NCBI GenBank assembly: GCA_030743815.1
Contig: JASLRT010000005.1
Coordinates: forward strand, 1 to 64,000
Length of the DNA stretch: 64,000 nt
Direction of reading: 5' to 3'
Source of the DNA: Candidatus Neomarinimicrobiota bacterium
GTDB lineage: Bacteria > Fidelibacterota > Marinisomatia > Marinisomatales > S15-B10
A model generated the notes under the pieces. That model did not search any database. It had not been told where the DNA came from and worked only from the letters and a program-made list of their open reading frames with translations. The translations under genes were made by a program, and so were the position numbers. This document shows positions 45,344-55,699 of the stretch, in pieces. The stretch's first letter is position 1. Each line of letters begins with the position of its first letter.

Positions 45344-45511
45344 TATTCTGAAAGAGATTGGGATATCCTCTTGTGATGAATCAAAAGATCTTTCATTCAT
45401 TCAAAGAAATCAATGTGGGGCGGTATTCCTTCCGCGACATTTTTCTCCTTCAAGGTTGACCCACAAATTCCTTGTATTCCAATCTGGCCAGTCGTTAACT
45501 TCGCTACTGAT

Positions 45512-45589
45512 ATGGCACAGCGACGACGAATGCATCATCACCATCATTGTATCCTTCTTTCCTATGAGAGGACAGGCGGCGCTGCGTAG
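45512..45589 (+). CDS. Leader peptide with consecutive Arg and His codons
   Basis: A 25-codon frame: ATG, Ala, Gln, three CGA Arg codons (45521-45529), ATG, then five His codons (CAT CAT CAC CAT CAT, 45533-45547), Cys-Ile-Leu-Leu-Ser-Tyr-Glu-Arg-Thr-Gly-Gly-Ala-Ala and TAG. The start is uncertain: the ATG at 45530 would drop the Arg codons, and an in-frame ATG at 45413 would make it 58 residues; none has a good Shine-Dalgarno. Five His codons in a row directly before a terminator and hisG are the hallmark of his-operon leader peptides such as enterobacterial HisL, where ribosome stalling controls termination. The Arg codons are notable because argG and argH lie in the same operon. Confidence 0.75.
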   Translation: MAQRRRMHHHHHCILLSYERTGGAA

Positions 45590-45614
45590 TTCGTAGAGAG
45601 ATATCATAAGACTT

Positions 45615-45645
45615 AAAAGCCCCTGGACTCCCAGGGGCTTTTTTT
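45615..45645 (+). terminator. Attenuator terminator before hisG
   Basis: An 8-bp G/C-rich stem gcccctgg/ccaggggc (45619-45626 with 45631-45638, 4-nt loop), extended by A/U pairs and ending in a seven-T run, lies 18 bp before the hisG ATG and 25 bp after the leader stop. An alternative pairing can be drawn: 45573-45583 (cagg, bulged c, gg, bulged cg, ct) with 45618-45625. It would break the terminator. Its left arm overlaps the last leader codons, so a ribosome reaching the stop would hide it, while one stalled at the Arg/His codons would leave it free. Confidence 0.85.
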
Positions 45646-45663
45646 ATTGATGAAAGGAGAACA

Positions 45664-46539
45664 ATGAATCAGGTATTGAATTTGGGTTTGCCGAAGGGGA
45701 GTCTTCAGGAGAGTACATTTAGTCTGCTGAAGCGGGCGGGCTGGAACTTCGTCGTTTCTGCCCGGGCGTACAAACCGTATTGCGACGATCCAGAGATGGA
45801 AGCCCTTCTCATCCGGGCGCAGGAGATGTCGGCTTACGTGGAACAGGGCATTTTTGATGTGGGTATTACCGGTCTGGACTGGGTTGTTGAAAACGGGTCT
45901 GATGTGGTAGAGGTGTGCGAGCTTGTTTACGCCAAATCCTACATGAGGACTGTGCGGTGGGTGCTTGCGGTTCCGGAAGATTCCGCAGTGAAGACAGTAC
46001 ACGATCTTCACGGCAAGCACATCAGCACCGAAGTGGTCAACATTACGAAAGACTATCTTGCGCACTACGACGTCACCGCCGAGGTGGAATTTTCCTGGGG
46101 CGCCACAGAGGTGAAGCCGGGGCTCTTGACGGATGCGATTGTTGAAGTGACGGAGACCGGTACCTCACTGAGGGCGAACAAGCTCCGTGTCGTAGATACC
46201 GTCATGGAGTCGTCCACCCGCCTCATCGCCAACAAGGAAGCATATGAAGATCAGTGGAAGAAAGGCAAGATTGATAATATTGCCCGCCTGCTCCAGAGTT
46301 CTATCGTCGCGGCCTCCCGGGTGGGATTGAAGATGAATGTGACGAACGAAAACTTGCAGGCAATCATAGATGTGCTCCCCGCCATGAAGACTCCCACGGT
46401 AAGTCCACTCTATAACGGTTCCGGTGCCGCGGTGGAGGTCATTGTTGAGGAAGAGACAGTGCGGGACATTATACCATGTCTTGTTGAGATGGGCGCCACA
46501 GACATCATAGAGTATCCTCTCAATAAGGTAATTCCGTGA
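45664..46539 (+). CDS. hisG: ATP phosphoribosyltransferase, long form
   Basis: 291 residues; Shine-Dalgarno aaaggaga. N-terminal [14 protein letters not shown], then D-V-G-I-T-G-L-D-W and the PRPP-site region [13 protein letters not shown]. The length and the C-terminal domain ([20 protein letters not shown]) make it the long, hexameric type with its own histidine-sensing domain, so no HisZ is needed. It catalyses the first step, ATP plus PRPP to phosphoribosyl-ATP. First gene of the operon, just after the attenuator. Confidence 0.95.
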
Positions 46540-47813
46540 TGCTGCCTATCGTTCGGACAGAGGAAGACCTGGAGCAGCGGCTTCAAACTCGCCGGCGGAT
46601 GTTTGCGGGTCAGTGTGTTGCAGTTGATGATATCCTGTCCCGCGTCCGTGAGAATGGGGACGAAGCGGTGAGAAATCTGACACAACAGTACGATGGTATC
46701 TCTGTTGACACACTGCGGGTATCCAGGGAGCGGAGCACTTCCGCCGCAGACTCCCTCAGTCCAGAGTTGCACTCAGCGATCTCGGCGGCGAGTGATAATA
46801 TTAGGCGATTTCACGAGAAACAGTTGCCGGAGAGTTATTCCATTGCCCAGCCCGATGGTACTCGAGTATCATTCCGATGGCGTCCGGTAGAGCGTGCGGG
46901 TGTCTATACACCGAGCGGGCGGTTTCCCCTTTTCTCCTCTGTCCTCATGAACGTTATTCCAGCGCAAGTGGCGGGTGTTCGAGAGATTGCCCTCTGTTCG
47001 CCACCCGGCGCGTCCGGCTATCCCAGTGATTTCATCTTAGCTGTCTGTGGTCTGCTCGGGGTGCCGGAGGTCTACAGGGTGGGCGGAGCGCAGGCCGTCG
47101 CCGCTCTGGCTTACGGCACGGAGAGCATTCCGGCGGTGGACAAGATCACAGGACCGGGGAATGTTTACGTGGCGGCGGCTAAACAGGCGGTAAGCGCCTC
47201 AGTGGGCATCGACGTTCTTGCGGGGCCTACTGAATTGGTGGTCATGGCGGATGAATCTGCCGATCCTGTCAGGGTGGCTACTGACCTCGTCTCACAGGCG
47301 GAACACGACCCGCAGGTATGGTCCGTTCTGTTGACTATCAGTGAAGAGACAGCTTCGGAAGTTAATTGCCGTCTGGAGGACGCTCTGGGCGAGTTGCCGA
47401 CGCGCGCAGCCACCGAAGCAGCGTTGGTGAACAACGGATTCGTCTATGTGGCAGATTCGATTGACAGCTGCATCGCAATGGTGAACAGGATCGCTCCCGA
47501 GCACCTGTCGTTACAGGTGGAAAATCCGGGGCGGTGGGTGGACGCTGTCACCGCGGGGGCTGTCTTTGTCGGCTCAGATACGCCTGTGGCGTGGGGGGAC
47601 TACTGGGCAGGAGCCAACCACACACTACCGACGACTGGTCAGGCGCGATTCAGAGGTCCCCTGTCTGTTTACGATTTTCTGGTTCCCTTCTCGGTCATCG
47701 AATCCCCGCAGTCGGCCGTGAAAGCAAGCGGCAGGTCGGTTGTAGCTCTGGCGGATGCGGAAGGACTTTCGGCACATGCCCGCTCGATTGAATTGAGGAT
47801 GGAAGATGGCTGA
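46539..47813 (+). CDS. hisD: Histidinol dehydrogenase
   Basis: 424 residues from the ATG at 46539, overlapping the hisG stop (TGATG); a GTG one codon earlier is also possible. Motifs: Y-T-P-S-G-R-F-P-L-F-S-S-V-L-M-N, G-P-G-N-V-Y-V-A-A-A-K, A-G-P-T-E-L-V-V-M-A-D, Q-A-E-H-D-P and N-R-I-A-P-E-H-L-S-L. It oxidises histidinol to histidine with two NAD, using a bound zinc. It overlaps hisC by 8 nt. Confidence 0.95.
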   Translation: MLPIVRTEEDLEQRLQTRRRMFAGQCVAVDDILSRVRENGDEAVRNLTQQYDGISVDTLRVSRERSTSAADSLSPELHSAISAASDNIRRFHEKQLPESYSIAQPDGTRVSFRWRPVERAGVYTPSGRFPLFSSVLMNVIPAQVAGVREIALCSPPGASGYPSDFILAVCGLLGVPEVYRVGGAQAVAALAYGTESIPAVDKITGPGNVYVAAAKQAVSASVGIDVLAGPTELVVMADESADPVRVATDLVSQAEHDPQVWSVLLTISEETASEVNCRLEDALGELPTRAATEAALVNNGFVYVADSIDSCIAMVNRIAPEHLSLQVENPGRWVDAVTAGAVFVGSDTPVAWGDYWAGANHTLPTTGQARFRGPLSVYDFLVPFSVIESPQSAVKASGRSVVALADAEGLSAHARSIELRMEDG

Positions 47814-48870
47814 TCCCGGGGTGACACAGTGGATCAGGGAAGAAGTACGCCGCCAGCCAGCCTACCGGGTAAAGAGCGCCGACTACAGTGTGAAGCTGAA
47901 TCAGAACGAGAGTCCCTGGGACTGGACTGAAGATCTGAAGAAAGAGATTTCATCCAGAATCATCAGCTCTCCGTGGAACCGATATCCGGAGCTGATCCCT
48001 TTGCAACTCAGGACAAAGCTGGCCCAATCTCTCAATATTGAGCTGACGCAAATTGTGATCGGCAAGGGGTCGAATGAAGTTCTTCAGGCATTGGCCACAG
48101 CGACTCTCACTAAGGGAGATACTGTCTGTACACTTTCACCTACTTTTGCTGTCTATGACATGGTGGCTGAGCAGCGGGGAGCGGTGGTTCTGGCATCACT
48201 GCTCAGTGACAGATTCGAGCCGAACGAAGTAGATCTGAAGAAAAAGGCCGTACAAGCCAAAGTGATCATCCTGTGCAATCCCAATTCACCCACCGGTACG
48301 CTGATACCGGTCGAGGTTGTCGAGGAGGTGGCCGAGGCAAGTCCAGGGCTGGTGGTGGTGGACGAGGCGTATATTGATTTCTCCGGTGTGACGGCTCTGC
48401 CTCTCGTGAGTGATCATGCCAATCTCGTGGTGACGAGAACTTTCTCCAAAGCATTTGCGCTGGCGGGGTTCCGTCTCGGCTACGCCGTCATGAGTGTGGA
48501 CTTGGCGACGGAAGTTCAGAAATGCCTCCTCCCGTTCAACATAGATATGCCGTCCGCTGTTGCCGGGGAAGTTCTACTAGATCACGCTGACTTTGTGGCT
48601 GAGCGTGCCCGAACGGTCGTGCGGGAACGGGATTGGTTGATTGACAGCTTGAATGACCTGCCGCGAGTCAAAGCCTGGCCGTCTCACGCTAACTTCTTCC
48701 TGCTGGAAACGTCTGCTCGTTCCGCCGCCACGTTCGACGGACTCACTCGACGAGGCATCCTCGTGAGGGATGTTTCCTCCTATCCACTGTGCGGGAACGT
48801 GGTGAGAGTAACGGTGGGAACGCCTGAGGAGAATCAGAAACTTCTGGAAGGAGTTCGAGCTCTGCTGTGA
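47806..48870 (+). CDS. hisC: Histidinol-phosphate aminotransferase
   Basis: 354 residues; fold type I PLP enzyme with K-L-N-Q-N-E-S-P, I-G-K-G-S-N-E-V-L, L-C-N-P-N-S-P-T-G-T, V-V-D-E-A-Y-I-D-F and the PLP lysine in T-F-S-K-A-F-A-L-A-G-F-R-L-G-Y. It converts imidazole-acetol phosphate to histidinol phosphate. It overlaps both hisD (8 nt) and the HAD gene (GTGA, 4 nt). Confidence 0.94.
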   Translation: MADPGVTQWIREEVRRQPAYRVKSADYSVKLNQNESPWDWTEDLKKEISSRIISSPWNRYPELIPLQLRTKLAQSLNIELTQIVIGKGSNEVLQALATATLTKGDTVCTLSPTFAVYDMVAEQRGAVVLASLLSDRFEPNEVDLKKKAVQAKVIILCNPNSPTGTLIPVEVVEEVAEASPGLVVVDEAYIDFSGVTALPLVSDHANLVVTRTFSKAFALAGFRLGYAVMSVDLATEVQKCLLPFNIDMPSAVAGEVLLDHADFVAERARTVVRERDWLIDSLNDLPRVKAWPSHANFFLLETSARSAATFDGLTRRGILVRDVSSYPLCGNVVRVTVGTPEENQKLLEGVRALL

Positions 48871-49673
48871 GATACGACGGTTACATATTCGACATTGACG
48901 GTGTTCTTCTCGATACCAGCCGCTCTTTCATTGCGGCGGTGGTGGAAGCGGTGTCGTACGCCACCTCGTCCGCCGCCTTCACGTTTGATGAGGTGCGACA
49001 GTTGAAGTCCATCCGCGGCTTCAACAACGACTGGAACGCGGCCATCGCCGGCGCATCCTGGGTCGCGTACAGACAGGAGGTAGACTTCCCATCTTTTGCG
49101 CAAGAGGTCGACAGGCACGGCGGCGGAATGTCTGGTTTGAGAGCTTCAGTGAATGAACTCACCCCGCAGTTTGAGTATCATCTCACAAGGCTGGTACAGG
49201 AAGCTTACGGTGGCACCTCAGCGTGCCGGAAGCTTTACGGCTTCGATCCGGAGTTCATAAGAATCCCTGGGCTGTGGCAGACTGAGGTCCCCATGGTGAT
49301 CACTGAGACGATCCGACCTGTCCTCCCCCAATCTGGTATTGTGACAGGACGAAATCGCCGTGAGGCGGAGCAGGCGTTCGAACTCCTGGGCTGGCGTTTG
49401 CCGGACGGCGTTGTGGCTGTATCGGATGATCCTCTCCTTGACAAACCCAATCCGGCAAAGCTGAAGTGTGTCATTAAGAATCTGCAGCGTGAATATCCGC
49501 TGTATGTAGGTGATGTGAGGGACGATCTTGAGCTCGTGAAGAACTATCGTCAGGAGACCGGTCGCCCCCTCAGCTTTTGTCTGGTGGGACGTAATCATTT
49601 AATAGGGGAGTACGACATGAAAGTAGCATCGGTTGGAGAGCTGCTGAAAAGAATGGAACGGAGCGATGCCTGA
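48867..49673 (+). CDS. HAD-family phosphatase in the his operon, candidate histidinol-phosphatase
   Basis: 268 residues from a GTG overlapping the hisC stop. HAD motifs are complete: F-D-I-D-G-V-L-L-D-T (nucleophile and acid/base Asp), S-G-I-V-T-G-R-N, the lysine in D-K-P-N-P-A-K, and Y-V-G-D-V-R-D-D-L. The cap domain is large. The operon otherwise lacks a histidinol-phosphatase, and enterobacterial HisB is a HAD phosphatase fused to the dehydratase encoded by the next gene here. This protein is therefore the best candidate for dephosphorylating histidinol phosphate, though it is not closely similar to the HisB N-terminal domain. It overlaps hisB by 8 nt. Confidence 0.8.
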   Translation: MRYDGYIFDIDGVLLDTSRSFIAAVVEAVSYATSSAAFTFDEVRQLKSIRGFNNDWNAAIAGASWVAYRQEVDFPSFAQEVDRHGGGMSGLRASVNELTPQFEYHLTRLVQEAYGGTSACRKLYGFDPEFIRIPGLWQTEVPMVITETIRPVLPQSGIVTGRNRREAEQAFELLGWRLPDGVVAVSDDPLLDKPNPAKLKCVIKNLQREYPLYVGDVRDDLELVKNYRQETGRPLSFCLVGRNHLIGEYDMKVASVGELLKRMERSDA

Positions 49674-50238
49674 GATCACTCGGACGACGGCGGAGACGAA
49701 TACTCATGTTTCCCTGGATATTCACGGAAAGGGAGAGAGTGAAATTCAGACAGGAATAGGTTTCTTTGACCACATGCTGACCCTGTTAGCTTTCTGGGCG
49801 CGCTGGGACCTGAAGCTGACTTGCGAGGGAGATCTTCACGTGGACACGCACCATACGGTGGAAGACACGGGACTGGCTCTTGGGGAAGTGTTCAAAAAAA
49901 CATGGATTGACAACACGGCCATTGAGCGGATCGTCTATGCGTTCTGTCCGTTGGATGAGGCGTTGAGCAGGGTGGTGGTGGACCTCTGCAACCGCGCCTA
50001 CTGTACATTTGATGCTGATTTCAATGTAGAGAGGGTAGGCGATTACGAAACAGCCATGACCGGTCACTTTTTCAGATCCTTCGCCCAGGAAGCGAGTATC
50101 ACTATGCATATTCATTCCCTCTTCGGCGAAAATGCTCACCATATCATTGAGACCATGTTCAAGGGACTGGGGCTGGCTCTTAGGCGGGCGCTGACGCCCC
50201 GGGAGGGAGGCACAGCTTCCACAAAGGGGAAATTGTGA
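49666..50238 (+). CDS. hisB: Imidazoleglycerol-phosphate dehydratase
   Basis: 190 residues, the single-domain form. Manganese-binding motifs G-F-F-D-H-M-L, H-H-T-V-E-D-T-G and N-A-H-H-I-I-E-T-M-F-K are present, with an N-terminal R-x-T-x-E-T segment. It dehydrates imidazole-glycerol phosphate to imidazole-acetol phosphate. It overlaps hisH by 4 nt. Confidence 0.95.
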   Translation: MPEITRTTAETNTHVSLDIHGKGESEIQTGIGFFDHMLTLLAFWARWDLKLTCEGDLHVDTHHTVEDTGLALGEVFKKTWIDNTAIERIVYAFCPLDEALSRVVVDLCNRAYCTFDADFNVERVGDYETAMTGHFFRSFAQEASITMHIHSLFGENAHHIIETMFKGLGLALRRALTPREGGTASTKGKL

Positions 50239-50831
50239 TCGGCATTGTGGACTATAGCGTGGGCAACATCGGCAGTCTGCGTAATGCTCTGACATATATG
50301 AACATCCCGTGCGTAGTGAAGGGAGATGTTGATGAACTGTCTTATTGCAAGGGACTTATCCTCCCTGGCGTGGGAGCGTTTCAGCCGGCCATGGAAAGGC
50401 TTGACGCTCTTGACCTCGCAACCTTCCTCCAAGAGTGGGCGAACAGCCACCGGCCGCTCATGGGAATCTGCCTCGGGATGCAGTTACTGCTCGACCAGAG
50501 CGAGGAAGATGGTCTGCACAAAGGTCTGGGGCTGATTCGTGGTAATGTCACCAAACTTCAGAATGCGCCAAGGGCGATCCATATCGGATGGAATCAGGTT
50601 GTCCCAGCAAAGACATCTGGCCCATCGTTTGAAAAAGGATATGCCTATTTTGTCCATTCTTATGTCTGTCAGCCGACTGACCAAGACGCCGTAATCGGAA
50701 AAACTTCGTATGGTGATAGTTTTGTCTCCATGCTGCAGTTAGGGAATATCATGGGTGTTCAGTTTCATCCGGAGAAGTCACAAGAATTTGGCCTCGCCAT
50801 TCTGAGGGAGTTCAGTGATGGATGCGTTTAG
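50235..50831 (+). CDS. hisH: Imidazole glycerol phosphate synthase, glutaminase subunit
   Basis: 198 residues from a GTG overlapping the hisB stop. Class I amidotransferase with G-V-G-A-F, G-I-C-L-G-M-Q-L-L (nucleophile Cys ~80), V-H-S-Y and Q-F-H-P-E-K-S. It supplies ammonia to HisF. It overlaps hisA by 14 nt. Confidence 0.94.
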   Translation: MIGIVDYSVGNIGSLRNALTYMNIPCVVKGDVDELSYCKGLILPGVGAFQPAMERLDALDLATFLQEWANSHRPLMGICLGMQLLLDQSEEDGLHKGLGLIRGNVTKLQNAPRAIHIGWNQVVPAKTSGPSFEKGYAYFVHSYVCQPTDQDAVIGKTSYGDSFVSMLQLGNIMGVQFHPEKSQEFGLAILREFSDGCV

Positions 50832-51540
50832 AGTAATCCCGGCCATCGACCTCATTGACGGAAAGTGCGTCCGTCTGACGCAAGGAGACTATGAAACAAG
50901 GCGTGTTTACAGCGATGATCCAGTCGCATTGTCAAGGAAGTTTCTTGAGGTTGGACTTGATCTGGTTCATTTAGTGGATCTGGACGGGGCGAGGAGTGGG
51001 CATCCTATGAACCTGCCGGTGGTGGAGGCTGTCGCAGCCACAGGGATTACTGTAGAGCTCGGAGGCGGGCTGCGTACCATCCACCATCTCCGGCAGGCTA
51101 CGGAAAGTGGGGTGGAGTATCTGATCCTCGGTTCGCGCCTGCTGTCAGACATCACTGTCCTCCGGGAGTGGACTGAACACTTTCCCCACCGGTTTGTGGC
51201 AGCCATTGATGCCCGGGACGGAAAGCTATCCACTCACGGATGGGAGTTCACTACAACAGTTGATGTGACGGAGGTCGTAGAGAAGGTCGAATCTCTGGGA
51301 TTCTCCCGCATCATCTACACTGACATACAGCGTGACGGGATGTTGTCCGGCCTAAACCTGCTACAGCTAAGATCCGTGGCTCGGAGCACAACCCTTCCTG
51401 TTGTAGCCTCAGGTGGAGTAGCTGGTGTGGAGGACATAACTTCCGTGAAGAAACTCCACGCCGCGGGCGTCACCGGTGTGATTGTGGGCAAAGCGTTTTA
51501 CGAGGGGAAGATCACACTGGAGGAGATGAGCCAGTGCTGA
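50818..51540 (+). CDS. hisA: Phosphoribosylformimino-AICAR-phosphate isomerase
   Basis: 240 residues from the ATG at 50818, 7 nt after a gaggga Shine-Dalgarno; a GTG one codon earlier is possible. (beta/alpha)8 barrel with A-I-D-L-I-D-G-K-C-V-R-L (catalytic Asp), L-G-G-G-L-R-T, Y-T-D-I-Q-R-D-G-M-L-S-G (second Asp) and A-S-G-G-V-A. It isomerises ProFAR to PRFAR. It overlaps hisF by 7 nt. Confidence 0.94.
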   Translation: MDAFRVIPAIDLIDGKCVRLTQGDYETRRVYSDDPVALSRKFLEVGLDLVHLVDLDGARSGHPMNLPVVEAVAATGITVELGGGLRTIHHLRQATESGVEYLILGSRLLSDITVLREWTEHFPHRFVAAIDARDGKLSTHGWEFTTTVDVTEVVEKVESLGFSRIIYTDIQRDGMLSGLNLLQLRSVARSTTLPVVASGGVAGVEDITSVKKLHAAGVTGVIVGKAFYEGKITLEEMSQC

Positions 51541-52310
51541 CGCGGCGGATCATACCTTGCCTCGATGTGAAAGACGGTCAGGTGGTGAAGGGGGTAAAGT
51601 TTGTGAACCTGGTCAACGAAGGGAATCCGGTGGAGTTGGCGGCGCGCTATTCTGACTCCGGTGCCGATGAACTTGTGTTTCTTGATATTACGGCGACTTT
51701 GGAATCCCGCCGGCATGTGGTGGATCTGTTGAGGGAAGTGGCGAAGCGGGTGTTCATCCCGTTCACCGTGGGGGGAGGAATCAGAACCACCGACGACATA
51801 GGTGAGATTCTTCACGCCGGTGCCGACAAAGTTTCTATCAATTCAGCCGCCCTTAAGAACCCGGGCCTACTGACGGAAGGGGCGAGGCGGTTCGGTTCCC
51901 AGTGCATCGTTCTGGCTATGGACGTGAAGCGGAATGCCAGCGGCTGGCGGGTTCATTCTCATGGGGGGACGAAACCGACGAAAAGGGAGGCCATCCAGTG
52001 GGCGATGGAAGCGGTGGAGAAAAGTGCCGGAGAAATCTTGCTGACCAGCATGGATGCTGACGGAACACAGAACGGAGTGGACGTAGAACTGACACGCCGG
52101 ATCAGCCGCTCTGTGAATATCCCCGTTATTGCATCAGGGGGGATTGGGACTGTTGACCATTTCAGGGAGGCTATCGAGACGGGAGAGGCGGACGCTGTTC
52201 TGGCGGCATCCGTTTTCCATCGCGGTATCTTCACCGTGCGGGAGGTGAAGGAATCTCTGGCAGCGCATAAGATCCCCATGAGATTGACAGGAGAAGAAAA
52301 TGAACTTTAA
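51534..52310 (+). CDS. hisF: Imidazole glycerol phosphate synthase, cyclase subunit
   Basis: 258 residues from a GTG inside the end of hisA. Barrel motifs [32 protein letters not shown] and A-S-G-G-I-G. With HisH it makes imidazole-glycerol phosphate and AICAR. It overlaps hisI by 11 nt. Confidence 0.95.
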
Positions 52311-52698
52311 TGAAGCGAAAACCCTTGTTCAAGAGATGAATCTGAGATTAGATCACAACGGTCTGGTGCCAGCCATCATACAAGATAGTGCCAGTGGCGA
52401 CGTGCTCATGCTTGGGTACATGAGCACGGAAAGTCTCGCCATCTCTCTCGCCGAAGGGAGGACATGCTTCTGGTCCCGAGGCCGCCAGATTCTCTGGCGA
52501 AAGGGAGAAACAAGCGGACATAAACAGGTCGTCTCTTCCATTGCTCTCGATTGTGACCGGGATACCGTGCTGGTGAGTGTGGAACAGACTGGCGCCGCGT
52601 GTCACAATGGTAGCCGTTCGTGTTTTGAAGAGACAATTGAACTTGCGACAGATGAAACTGAGAGCAACGATCAACCTAATAAGGAGGTACAGAAGTGA
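52300..52698 (+). CDS. hisI: Phosphoribosyl-AMP cyclohydrolase
   Basis: 132 residues. HisI motifs V-L-M-L-G-Y-M-S, R-T-C-F-W-S-R-G-R-Q-I-L-W-R-K-G-E-T-S-G-H, and the metal cysteines in D-C-D-R-D and G-A-A-C-H-N-G-S-R-S-C-F. It opens the purine ring of phosphoribosyl-AMP. There is no fused HisE domain, and no hisE gene elsewhere in the window, so the phosphoribosyl-ATP pyrophosphatase must be encoded elsewhere. The stop overlaps the GTG of the pseudogene that follows. Confidence 0.94.
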   Translation: MNFNEAKTLVQEMNLRLDHNGLVPAIIQDSASGDVLMLGYMSTESLAISLAEGRTCFWSRGRQILWRKGETSGHKQVVSSIALDCDRDTVLVSVEQTGAACHNGSRSCFEETIELATDETESNDQPNKEVQK

Positions 52699-53240
52699 AA
52701 AGCATTGCTGACCACCGACGTAGAGTTTACGACTGCATAACCAATCTCATCGGGAGTTCTGATAATCCCACGCCAATCGTGATGTTGAACCGCAGGATGA
52801 ATCCGTATCCCGAGTTTCAGATCGGTGTGAAGTTATAACGATTCAATATTTTCGGTTCCATAAAGGATCGTGTTGCCTTGAGCATGATTCGTGAAACAGA
52901 GGTGGGAACCGGGCAGACTCTCCTGGAAGCCTCTTCCAGGAATACCGGCCTGGCTCTGGCGGCCATTGCCAACGCTATCGGTCTGCCGGCGGAAGTGGCC
53001 GTCCCGGAAAGAATACCAGAGGAAAAAAGGTGCTATTGAGATTGCTGGGAATAGATACATTGGGGGAGGCGGAAGACGAGCTATACCCTCTGTTCCCCAA
53101 TGAGGGGGCACGGCAGTCACTATCTCAGCGGACGATGTTTTCAAGTATACGAGCTTTTATCAGCCGTACTTGGCGGATGCAAACGAACCTTAAAATGGGG
53201 AACAAGGCGATCCTGACCGGACTGGAATGGAATGCTTGAC
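52695..53240 (+). pseudogene. Decayed cysteine-synthase-family (PLP fold type II) gene
   Basis: A GTG overlapping the hisI stop, with a strong aaggaggt upstream, opens a frame reading I-G-S-S-D-N-P-T-P-I-V-M-L-N-R, like the start of CysK. A TAA interrupts it at 52836 where the family has Glu (K-L-E), but the same frame continues as F-N-I-F-G-S-I-K-D-R-V-A-L (PLP-lysine motif) and L-E-A-S-S-R-N-T-G (normally S-G-N-T-G). At the A6 run 53023-53028 a one-base loss shifts the frame; the +1 frame then reads V-L-L-R-L-L-G-I-D-T-L-G-E. Further shifts follow (Y-Q-P-Y-L-A-D-A-N in another frame). About 180 codons remain of ~300, so the 3' part is deleted as well. It was once an operon gene and is now dead. 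Confidence 0.8.
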
Positions 53241-53252
53241 GAAGGAGAAGAT

Positions 53253-54503
53253 ATGAGCAAGAAGAAAGTAGTATTAGCATACAGCGGAGGGCTCGATACG
53301 TCGGTCATTCTCAAATGGCTGCAGAACAAAGGGTATGCAGTCATTTGTTTTGTCGGCAATGTGGGTCAGCGGGAGGATTTTGCAGCCGTAGAGGAGAAGG
53401 CCCTGAAAACAGGCGCCTCAAAAGTCTTCGTGGAGGATCTGCGGCGTGAGTTTATCACCGACTTCATTTTTCCTGCGCTTCAGGGTAATGCGCTGTATGA
53501 AGGGAGGTATCTGTTAGGCACGTCTCTGGCCCGGCCGGTCTTGGCGAAAAGGCAGATCGAGATTGCCCGGAGCGAGGGGGCGAACTTCGTGGCTCACGGA
53601 GCCACCGGCAAGGGGAATGATCAGGTGAGGTTTGAACTGACCTACTACGCACTGAATCCGGATATTCAGGTAATCTCGCCCTGGAAGGACAGCGAGTTTC
53701 TCGCTGAGTTCAAGGGACGGACCGATCTATTGGCCTCTGCTGAAGCGTGGGAGATTCCTGTGAGCGCCACAAAGAAGCACCCGTACAGTGAGGATGAGAA
53801 TCTGATGCACATCAGCCACGAGGCGGGCATCCTGGAAGACCCAGCTCTGCGGCCTGCCGAATCGGTTTTCAGCCATACTGCCGGCATAGATCAGACGCCG
53901 GGCAAGGAAACGATTATCGATATTTACTTTGAGAACGGATTACCGACAAAGGTCGTGAACCTGGATGATGGAACCGAGCAGAGTGATCCTCTGGATCTTT
54001 TTCTCTACCTTAACGGTCTTGCGGGAGAACACGGCATAGGGCGGCTCGACATGGTTGAGAACCGGTTCATCGGTATTAAGTCGAGAGGAATTTACGAGAC
54101 GCCCGGCGCTACCGTATTGTGGGCTGCCCACCGCGACCTCGAAGGGATGGCCATGGACAAGGAGGTAATGCACCTCCGCGACATGCTGATCCCGAAATTC
54201 TCGGAACTCATCTACAACGGCCTCTGGTACTCGCCCGAAATGGACTTCATAATGAGCGCATTCAAAAAGAGTCAGGAGGCCATCGATGGCAAGGTGACTG
54301 TGGCTCTCTACAAGGGGAATGTGACGGTGGTCGGAAGAGAATCCCATACGTCCCTTTACGATCAGGACTTCTCCAGCATGGAGGTTGAGGGCGGTTTTGA
54401 CGCTGAAGACAGCCGCGGCTTCATCAATATTCACTCTATCAGACTCAAGGCCCACAATCTTGTGTTGCACAAGCGGCGGCCTTACAACTGGAGAAAGGAG
54501 TAG
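53253..54503 (+). CDS. argG: Argininosuccinate synthase
   Basis: 416 residues from the ATG at 53253 (aaggag 5 bp upstream); an ATG at 53232 is in frame but lacks that spacing. N-terminal ATP-pyrophosphatase loop [11 protein letters not shown], then [11 protein letters not shown] and Y-S-E-D-E-N-L. It joins citrulline and aspartate using ATP. No promoter or terminator separates it from hisI and the pseudogene, so it appears to belong to the his transcript. argH follows after 5 bp. Confidence 0.95.
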
Positions 54504-54508
54504 CGTTT

Positions 54509-55699
54509 ATGGGGAAGCTATGGCAAAAAGGATACGACCTGAATAAAGAAATTGAGTCGTTTACCGTGGGCGATGATCCTGAACTCGATCAGCGGTTGGT
54601 CCCCTACGATTGCGTCGCTTCCATGGCACATGCAAAGATGCTGGGCAAGATCGGGATTCTTGACGGTAACGAAGTTAGACAGCTCGTTGCGGAACTGGAG
54701 AACATCATCGAACTCCACAAGGGCGGGCAGTTCCCCATAACTCTTGATCAGGAGGACTGCCACACGGCTATCGAGAATCATCTCACAGAAAAGCTGGGCG
54801 ATCTGGGGAAGAAAATCCACACAGCCCGCTCACGGAATGATCAGGTGTTGACGGCATTGCGTCTGTTCTACAAAGATCAGATCAATGAATGTGAGGAGTT
54901 GATTGACGGTCTCATCGAGTCAATGGAAAGCTTCATCAAAAGAAGTGGAGAGACGCCGTTGCCGGGCTATACGCACATGCGGAAAGCCATGCCTTCATCT
55001 GTCGCTATGTGGGGCGGTGCGTTGGTCGATTCCATGAAGGACAATCGGAAACTGCTCCACGTGGTCCTTGTATTGATTGATCAGTCACCGCTGGGTACTG
55101 CCGCCGGCTATGGAGTACCGCTGAAGATCGATAGGGAATTCACAGCGAAAGAGCTGGGGTTTGATACAGTGCAGCAGAACCCAATCTATGTCCAGAACAG
55201 CAGGGGGAAATTTGAGATATCGCTGCTGCACGCACTGAGCCAGATTATTCTCGACCTCAACAGAATCGCATCGGATTTGATTTTGTTCAGCATGCCCGAG
55301 TTTGGCTTCTTTGAACTGCCTGATGAGTTTTGTACCGGCAGCTCAATCATGCCGCAGAAAAAGAATCCCGATGTGCTGGAAATTCTGAGGGCTAAGTACC
55401 ATGTGGTGAGGTCGTGCCAGCACGAAGTGGAGTCTATTGTGGGGAATCTGATATCAGGATTCAGTCGAGACCTCCAACTCACCAAGGAGCCCACTCTCAG
55501 GGGTATCGACACGACCCTGGAGTGTCTCTCCGTGGCGGCACTGATTTTCAGTGAACTGAGCTTGAACAAGGAGCGGTGTGAGAAGGCGATGACGGACGAA
55601 CTGTTTGCCACGGAGGAGGTTTATCAGCTGGTGGAACAGGGAATCCCATTCCGGGAAGCATACGGGCGGGTGGCGCTGAAGCATAAAGATTCGTCATAA
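54509..55699 (+). CDS. argH: Argininosuccinate lyase, short C-terminus
   Basis: 396 residues. Family motifs H-T-A-R-S-R-N-D-Q (~107), G-Y-T-H-M-R-K-A-M-P-S-S and the catalytic loop G-S-S-I-M-P-Q-K-K-N-P (~277). It cleaves argininosuccinate to arginine and fumarate. It stops soon after P-F-R-E-A-Y-G-R-V-A, about 50-60 residues short of the usual 450-470, so the last helices of the C-terminal domain are missing; the active site is intact. The sequence after the stop does not continue the family. Last gene of the operon; a bulged hairpin without a T run follows at about 55703-55725. Confidence 0.9.
   Translation: MGKLWQKGYDLNKEIESFTVGDDPELDQRLVPYDCVASMAHAKMLGKIGILDGNEVRQLVAELENIIELHKGGQFPITLDQEDCHTAIENHLTEKLGDLGKKIHTARSRNDQVLTALRLFYKDQINECEELIDGLIESMESFIKRSGETPLPGYTHMRKAMPSSVAMWGGALVDSMKDNRKLLHVVLVLIDQSPLGTAAGYGVPLKIDREFTAKELGFDTVQQNPIYVQNSRGKFEISLLHALSQIILDLNRIASDLILFSMPEFGFFELPDEFCTGSSIMPQKKNPDVLEILRAKYHVVRSCQHEVESIVGNLISGFSRDLQLTKEPTLRGIDTTLECLSVAALIFSELSLNKERCEKAMTDELFATEEVYQLVEQGIPFREAYGRVALKHKDSS

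Follow-up and report, generated by a model that had tools for sequence, protein, structure and literature searches.

The his-argGH operon and its leader

The window, i.e. the whole stretch of 64,000 nucleotides analyzed here, comes from a Candidatus Neomarinimicrobiota genome (G000) of 2.1 Mb in 123 contigs. It contains an operon with the gene order hisG-hisD-hisC-HAD-hisB-hisH-hisA-hisF-hisI-argG-argH, upstream of whose leader deoC lies in the opposite orientation. NCBIfam models score over their cut-offs for hisG, hisD, hisC, hisB, hisH, hisF, hisI, argG, and argH, and hisA was assigned from homology and gene order. An initial annotation had likewise placed argG and argH in one operon with the his genes. 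Between hisI and argG, positions 52713-53187 hold a decayed PALP-family (cysteine-synthase-like) gene, of which an intact copy follows hisI in another genome (G097, L191:1105-2097). The features of the locus, all on the forward strand, are as follows.

45472-45474, + strand: TTG of a putative -33 element like that of Bacteroidetes; the -7 element follows after 21 nt
45496-45503, + strand: candidate -7 element TAACTTCG; G001, from the same genus, has this element equally far upstream of its Arg leader
45512-45589, + strand: leader peptide ORF, 25 codons, MAQRRRMHHHHHCILLSYERTGGAA; counterparts in 27 further hisG leaders
45521-45529, + strand: three putative Arg control codons (CGA x3); across genomes, Arg-Arg goes with the presence of argGH in the operon
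45533-45547, + strand: five putative His control codons; clustered His codons in 28/28 hisG leaders analyzed
45568-45580, + strand: predicted antiterminator 5' arm, in the final leader codons; duplex of -18.3 kcal/mol, shuffle p = 0.010, own terminator arm favored over swapped arms
45615-45646, + strand: intrinsic terminator with U tract (-21.2 kcal/mol); hairpin 45615-45642, U tract to 45646
45619-45630, + strand: predicted antiterminator 3' arm, overlapping the left arm and loop of the terminator
45664-46539, + strand: hisG (TIGR00070, 170 bits; TIGR03455, 99 bits; both above cut-off)
46536-52698, + strand: hisD, hisC, HAD-type hydrolase, hisB, hisH, hisA, hisF, and hisI
53256-55699, + strand: argG and argH, the last genes of the operon (NF001770, 536 bits; TIGR00838, 314 bits)

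Checked base by base, the leader ORF begins ATG GCA CAG, continues with the three CGA codons, an in-frame ATG (45530-45532), the His codons CAT CAT CAC CAT CAT, and TGT, and ends with GCG and the stop codon TAG (45587-45589). This agrees with the initial annotation, as does the strong terminator that begins 25 nt past the stop codon; the end of its U tract lies 17 nt before hisG. All three Arg codons of the leader are CGA, which is among the two rarest Arg codons in ten window genes sampled.

Leaders, terminators, and antiterminators across the phylum

We searched 245 phylum genomes and a species-level collection of genomes for hisG; the evidence throughout is inference from sequence. Upstream of hisG, a terminator and a short ORF in which His codons cluster are present at 23 loci with a window-type HisG and at four with a divergent HisG. 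These 27 Neomarinimicrobiota leaders and one from Zixibacteria are the 28 hisG leaders analyzed, within a set of 45 leaders of all kinds. One genome with a window-type HisG (G063) has its His-rich ORF further upstream and was left out of the leader analysis. Comparison of the relatives, which the initial annotation had put forward as a check, shows that the His run, the stop position, and the terminator are kept while the remainder drifts. Among other phyla, a His leader with a terminator was found at 1 of 70 hisG upstream regions, the Zixibacteria locus; another region (L027) also passed the crude filter, although its ORF has only 9 codons and is more than 400 nt distant. His-rich short ORFs before terminators are rare in other phyla (4/301). 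Arg-rich ones precede 28/301 terminators, about 9%, so a single Arg run alone means little.

Two observations concern the distribution of hisG itself. It was found in only 66/245 phylum genomes (30/94 of those of good quality), which suggests widespread histidine auxotrophy or assembly gaps. The Zixibacteria metagenome-assembled genome (L014), with its His-run leader and terminator before hisG, encodes a HisG on a long branch within the clade of the window HisG, perhaps acquired by horizontal transfer.

Close before the leader start, the motif TTG, 18-24 nt, TAnnTT is present in 30/45 leaders (2.0 expected, maximum 8 in 500 shuffles), and we take it to resemble the -33/-7 promoter of Bacteroidetes. 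For the window, this places the predicted 5' end of the transcript at about 45507-45510, only a few bases ahead of codon 1, and translation should then include the Arg codons; a start downstream of 45547, a possibility raised in the initial annotation, is thus not what the motif predicts. Because the promoter-like motif sits just before the start codons and a Shine-Dalgarno (SD)-like motif is almost absent (4/45 leaders), the leader peptides are probably translated from nearly leaderless RNA, from a start before the Arg codons.

A terminator follows the stop codon in 45/45 leaders of every kind, and the predicted antiterminator 5' arm starts before the stop codon in 44/45. The bulged antiterminator of the window, with its left arm in the last leader codons, exists and is slightly larger than initially drawn, pairing 45568-45570 with 45628-45630, 45573-45576 with 45622-45625, and 45578-45580 with 45619-45621; its duplex energy is reached by about 1% of shuffles. 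Antiterminator pairing beats 95% of shuffles individually in 26/45 leaders, and the combined p over the 45, in which related rows are not independent, is about 1e-25. The mean energy of pairing with the own terminator is -16.0 kcal/mol, a value reached by 0/5000 permutations of the arms between species, for which the mean is about -11.5 kcal/mol; for the 12 order-level his leaders alone, the permutation p is 0.0002. As judged from these permutations, antiterminator complementarity co-evolves with its own terminator arm.

We also modeled the leaders with a ribosome at different positions. In Arg+His leaders, the left arm of the terminator is sequestered at 0.56 on average when the ribosome sits on the Arg or the His codons and at 0.01 when it sits at the stop codon. 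Sequestration over all 45 leaders is 0.64 versus 0.39 for shuffled sequences (40/45 above; Wilcoxon p = 5e-11). The corresponding values for the window, with assumed footprints of 6-15 nt, are 0.59 on the control codons versus 0.02-0.06 at the stop codon, and on its own the former is not significant against shuffles (0.59 versus 0.49, p = 0.23). Because the window ensemble is only slightly above its shuffles, the argument is carried by the duplex energy of the window (p = 0.010) together with the phylum-wide comparison. The full-leader equilibrium fold favors the terminator in most ribosome positions, and the case therefore rests on folding before the right arm of the terminator is made. In known attenuators, it is folding before that arm exists that decides the outcome. 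In silico, the predicted antiterminator and the terminator are mutually exclusive, and a ribosome at the stop codon masks the former. Since clustered His codons and a terminator occur in all 28 hisG leaders and the pairing exceeds that of shuffled or swapped arms, His attenuation before hisG is close to certain in silico.

Arginine codons and the position of argGH

Seven genomes have argG(H) fused to the his operon (G000, G030, G098, G133, G136, G034, and G151). In G034, hisI-argG-argH is on a contig other than that of hisG, and in G151 hisI is followed by argG. Arg-Arg precedes His in 6/7 his leaders where argG(H) is intact and fused, versus 0/12 in genomes whose argG(H) is missing, decayed to a pseudogene, or located elsewhere (Fisher p = 2.6e-4; Mann-Whitney p = 3.7e-4); G018 and G150 were excluded from this count because their argG linkage was unreadable. 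Mapped on the HisG tree, each trait changes four times and there are three well-supported independent pairs, the shifts being nearly always as expected. Only 3-4 independent argGH transitions are available, too few for the sign test to reach significance (3/3 as expected, p = 0.25).

A sister pair in genus g28 illustrates this co-variation. The control codons read CGA CGC CGA CAT AAC CAT TAT CAT CGT in G098, in which argGH is present, and CAA CGC CAA CAT CAC CAT CAT CAT TGT in G097, in which argG was not found. Going from G098 to G097, the first 12 codons change at five places (CGA/CAA, CGA/CAA, CGT/TGT, AAC/CAC, and TAT/CAT); three of the changes remove Arg and the other two create His. In genus g7, G024 and G011 have argG pseudogenes and one Arg codon in the leader control region; behind their his operons (G011:C29, L115; G024:C146, L114), argG carries in-frame stops, and argH fragments are also found in G011. 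Two members of the window's family (G007 and G004) have a his leader without an Arg run, and their argGH genes form a separate operon. The leader before that separate argG is weak in Arg, the one in G004 having one Arg and several Lys codons. In the genomes compared, Arg codons in his leaders are associated with argGH in the operon, as in a multi-amino-acid attenuator, through few transitions.

Where argGH lies apart from the his genes, it is often preceded by an Arg-codon leader with its own terminator, and 17 such leaders were analyzed. One is found in the window's genus, the stand-alone argG leader MVERRRQVRRSRTPRQNWRFRGIL of G001 (75% complete), a genome in which hisG was not found. Other examples are MMNVRRNNREDRRRSNLLEGLR (G106), MKNMTRHMNLTIIRRRRPSLEGTGV (G229), and MRSALRRSNNRFRATSADSRSRPDRV (G185). 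G185 and G186 each have a His-only leader at hisG plus an Arg leader at argG. The repressor ArgR is encoded in 23/245 phylum genomes, only in families f23, f27, and f29; its gene typically lies just ahead of argG, and it was found in no genome with an Arg leader. A search of G000 for the ArgR domains PF02863 and PF01316, with positive control genomes included, gave no match, so membership of the window operon in an ArgR regulon is not indicated. Six genomes (G002, G063, G116, G190, G194, and G200) have argG loci with neither ArgR nor a leader directly before. No leader lies directly before argC, which is inside an operon in most genomes checked, or before argF of the window genome. Taken together, the co-variation with argGH, the Arg-only leaders at stand-alone argGH, and the absence of ArgR support the initial proposal that Arg codons let one leader sense both amino acids.

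As for arginine synthesis as a whole, G000 has argG, argH, and argF, with no above-cut-off argC and no LysW, and may therefore make arginine from imported ornithine or citrulline.

A probable attenuator for two amino acids

We consider it very likely that the leader works as a ribosome-mediated transcription attenuator responding to histidine as well as to arginine. Transcription would begin just before the leader AUG and give a nearly leaderless RNA. When both amino acids are plentiful, the ribosome would reach the stop codon and cover 45568-45580, the terminator would form, and transcription would end before hisG. A shortage of charged tRNA-His or tRNA-Arg would stall the ribosome on the His or Arg codons, and the last leader codons, left exposed, would pair with the left arm of the terminator and allow RNA polymerase to continue into the his-argGH genes. 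Because the terminator arm is sequestered in the model with the ribosome on Arg as well as His codons, a stall at either codon type should permit readthrough, which would extend to argGH.

His attenuators are classic in enterobacteria, and the conserved His leaders, the terminators, and the antiterminator pairing support the enterobacterial type of logic for the window leader. As in the enterobacterial his leader (hisL, Rfam RF00514), a His run lies in a short ORF, a terminator precedes hisG, and the position of the ribosome would select between terminator and antiterminator. The window leader differs in its added Arg codons, its apparently SD-less and nearly leaderless start, and its phylum. 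Its RF00514 score of 26.9 bits is below the gathering score of 49, and it is therefore not a member of that family. No Rfam family reaches its gathering score anywhere in the window, which applies also to the T-box, for which the leader region has no match at E up to 10. The thr, ilvGMEDA, and ilvBN leaders of enterobacteria likewise have codons for more than one amino acid in one leader. The amino acids sensed by these leaders belong to one branched pathway family, whereas the pathways to His and Arg are unrelated and have had their genes joined here in one operon.

Attenuators have been listed for trp, his, leu, thr, ilv, and pheA operons (PMC1183508), and His attenuators with a short leader, 3-5 His codons, a terminator, and an antiterminator have been predicted by comparison in Firmicutes (PMC9413887), a different phylum, with no Arg codons or arg genes described. 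A survey of Actinobacteria notes arginine control by T-boxes elsewhere and has no arginine element in its own set (PMC1262725). In Salmonella speF orf34 (PMC6386406) and in S. aureus rbfL (PMC13009471), the supply of arginine is read out through ribosomes that pause on Arg codons, a role that the Arg codons of the window leader would share. Those systems, on the other hand, use mRNA stability/Rho or a block of translation initiation, and arginine biosynthesis genes are not their targets. Our literature search, outside which most subscription journals lie so that absence is not proof, found no attenuator for arginine biosynthesis or combining His and Arg, and no leader attenuator in Marinimicrobia.

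Other readings of the leader were weighed against dual sensing. An attenuator for histidine only is unlikely. Its Arg codons would then be accidental or would form a hairpin, as its left arm, with the last part of the leader ORF. When the complete leader is folded to minimum energy, the CGA region does pair with GGCGGCGCUGCG; moreover, G151 is fused yet has a single Arg codon before His. However, Arg codons track argGH and are fewer in G097, which lacks a detected argGH, and separate argGH genes are preceded by Arg-codon leaders of their own. Sequestration of the window's terminator arm is 0.59 with the Arg region free and equally 0.59 with it not free, which reveals no structural requirement for the Arg codons. 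This result and the codon changes between G098 and G097 reduced our confidence in the variant in which these codons are retained purely as a hairpin arm. It is improbable, too, that the leader is dual in origin while argGH is now expressed from its own promoter in the hisI-argG gap, the Arg codons being a relic or raising his expression alone. This gap is about 560 nt long in the window and is occupied by the decayed PALP-family gene, a pseudogene of about 0.5 kb, whereas the genes are adjacent, with a spacing of about 30-45 nt, in most other fused genomes. Against this, no sigma-70-type promoter, terminator, or Arg leader was found in the gap, and CGA x3 is retained.

That translation starts at the in-frame ATG at 45530, between the Arg and His codons, so that His codons alone are read, is very improbable. 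No SD-like motif precedes this ATG, and by the promoter-like motif the AUG at 45512 is the first of the transcript. Furthermore, in the other six fused genomes no start codon separates Arg from His codons, and in most relatives with Arg codons these must therefore be translated. As for a plain terminator preceded by a chance ORF, terminators behind an Arg-rich short ORF are not uncommon, as seen above, but those behind a His-rich one are rare, and yet His-rich ORFs are found in all hisG leaders analyzed, with co-evolving antiterminators. Conservation already contradicts this reading, to which we attach almost no probability.

Dual sensing may belong to a wider code. Lys-rich or Lys+Arg-rich leader ORFs with a terminator, such as MKLFTSKSNDKKAKKAGSP and MSKKNNRPLARNKNIARRAKMLSVGVTV, precede LysW operons (L228-L230 and L234-L237) in G098, G030, G151, G117, G188, G002, and G063. 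These leaders have Lys and Arg where two LysX-type ligases follow (G030 and G002) and mainly Lys where one follows (G098, G151, G188, and G063); G117, with one ligase found, is an exception to this pattern. The LysW leaders fit a general scheme that we regard as likely, in which leader attenuators of Neomarinimicrobiota form a modular code, with His at hisG, Arg at argGH (replacing ArgR), Lys at the LysW operon, and composites (His+Arg, Lys+Arg) where functions are joined. A few point changes would then rewrite the leaders when operons fuse or split.

If dual sensing is true, genes of arginine biosynthesis would in the window be under a ribosome-mediated attenuator, and a single leader would sense two amino acids from unrelated pathways. 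Because leader codons change with operon content, relatives gaining or losing leader Arg codons together with the arginine genes, the phylum would be a natural record of the re-specification of a regulatory RNA upon gene movement. It also suggests how mostly uncultured ocean bacteria may control their arginine genes without ArgR.
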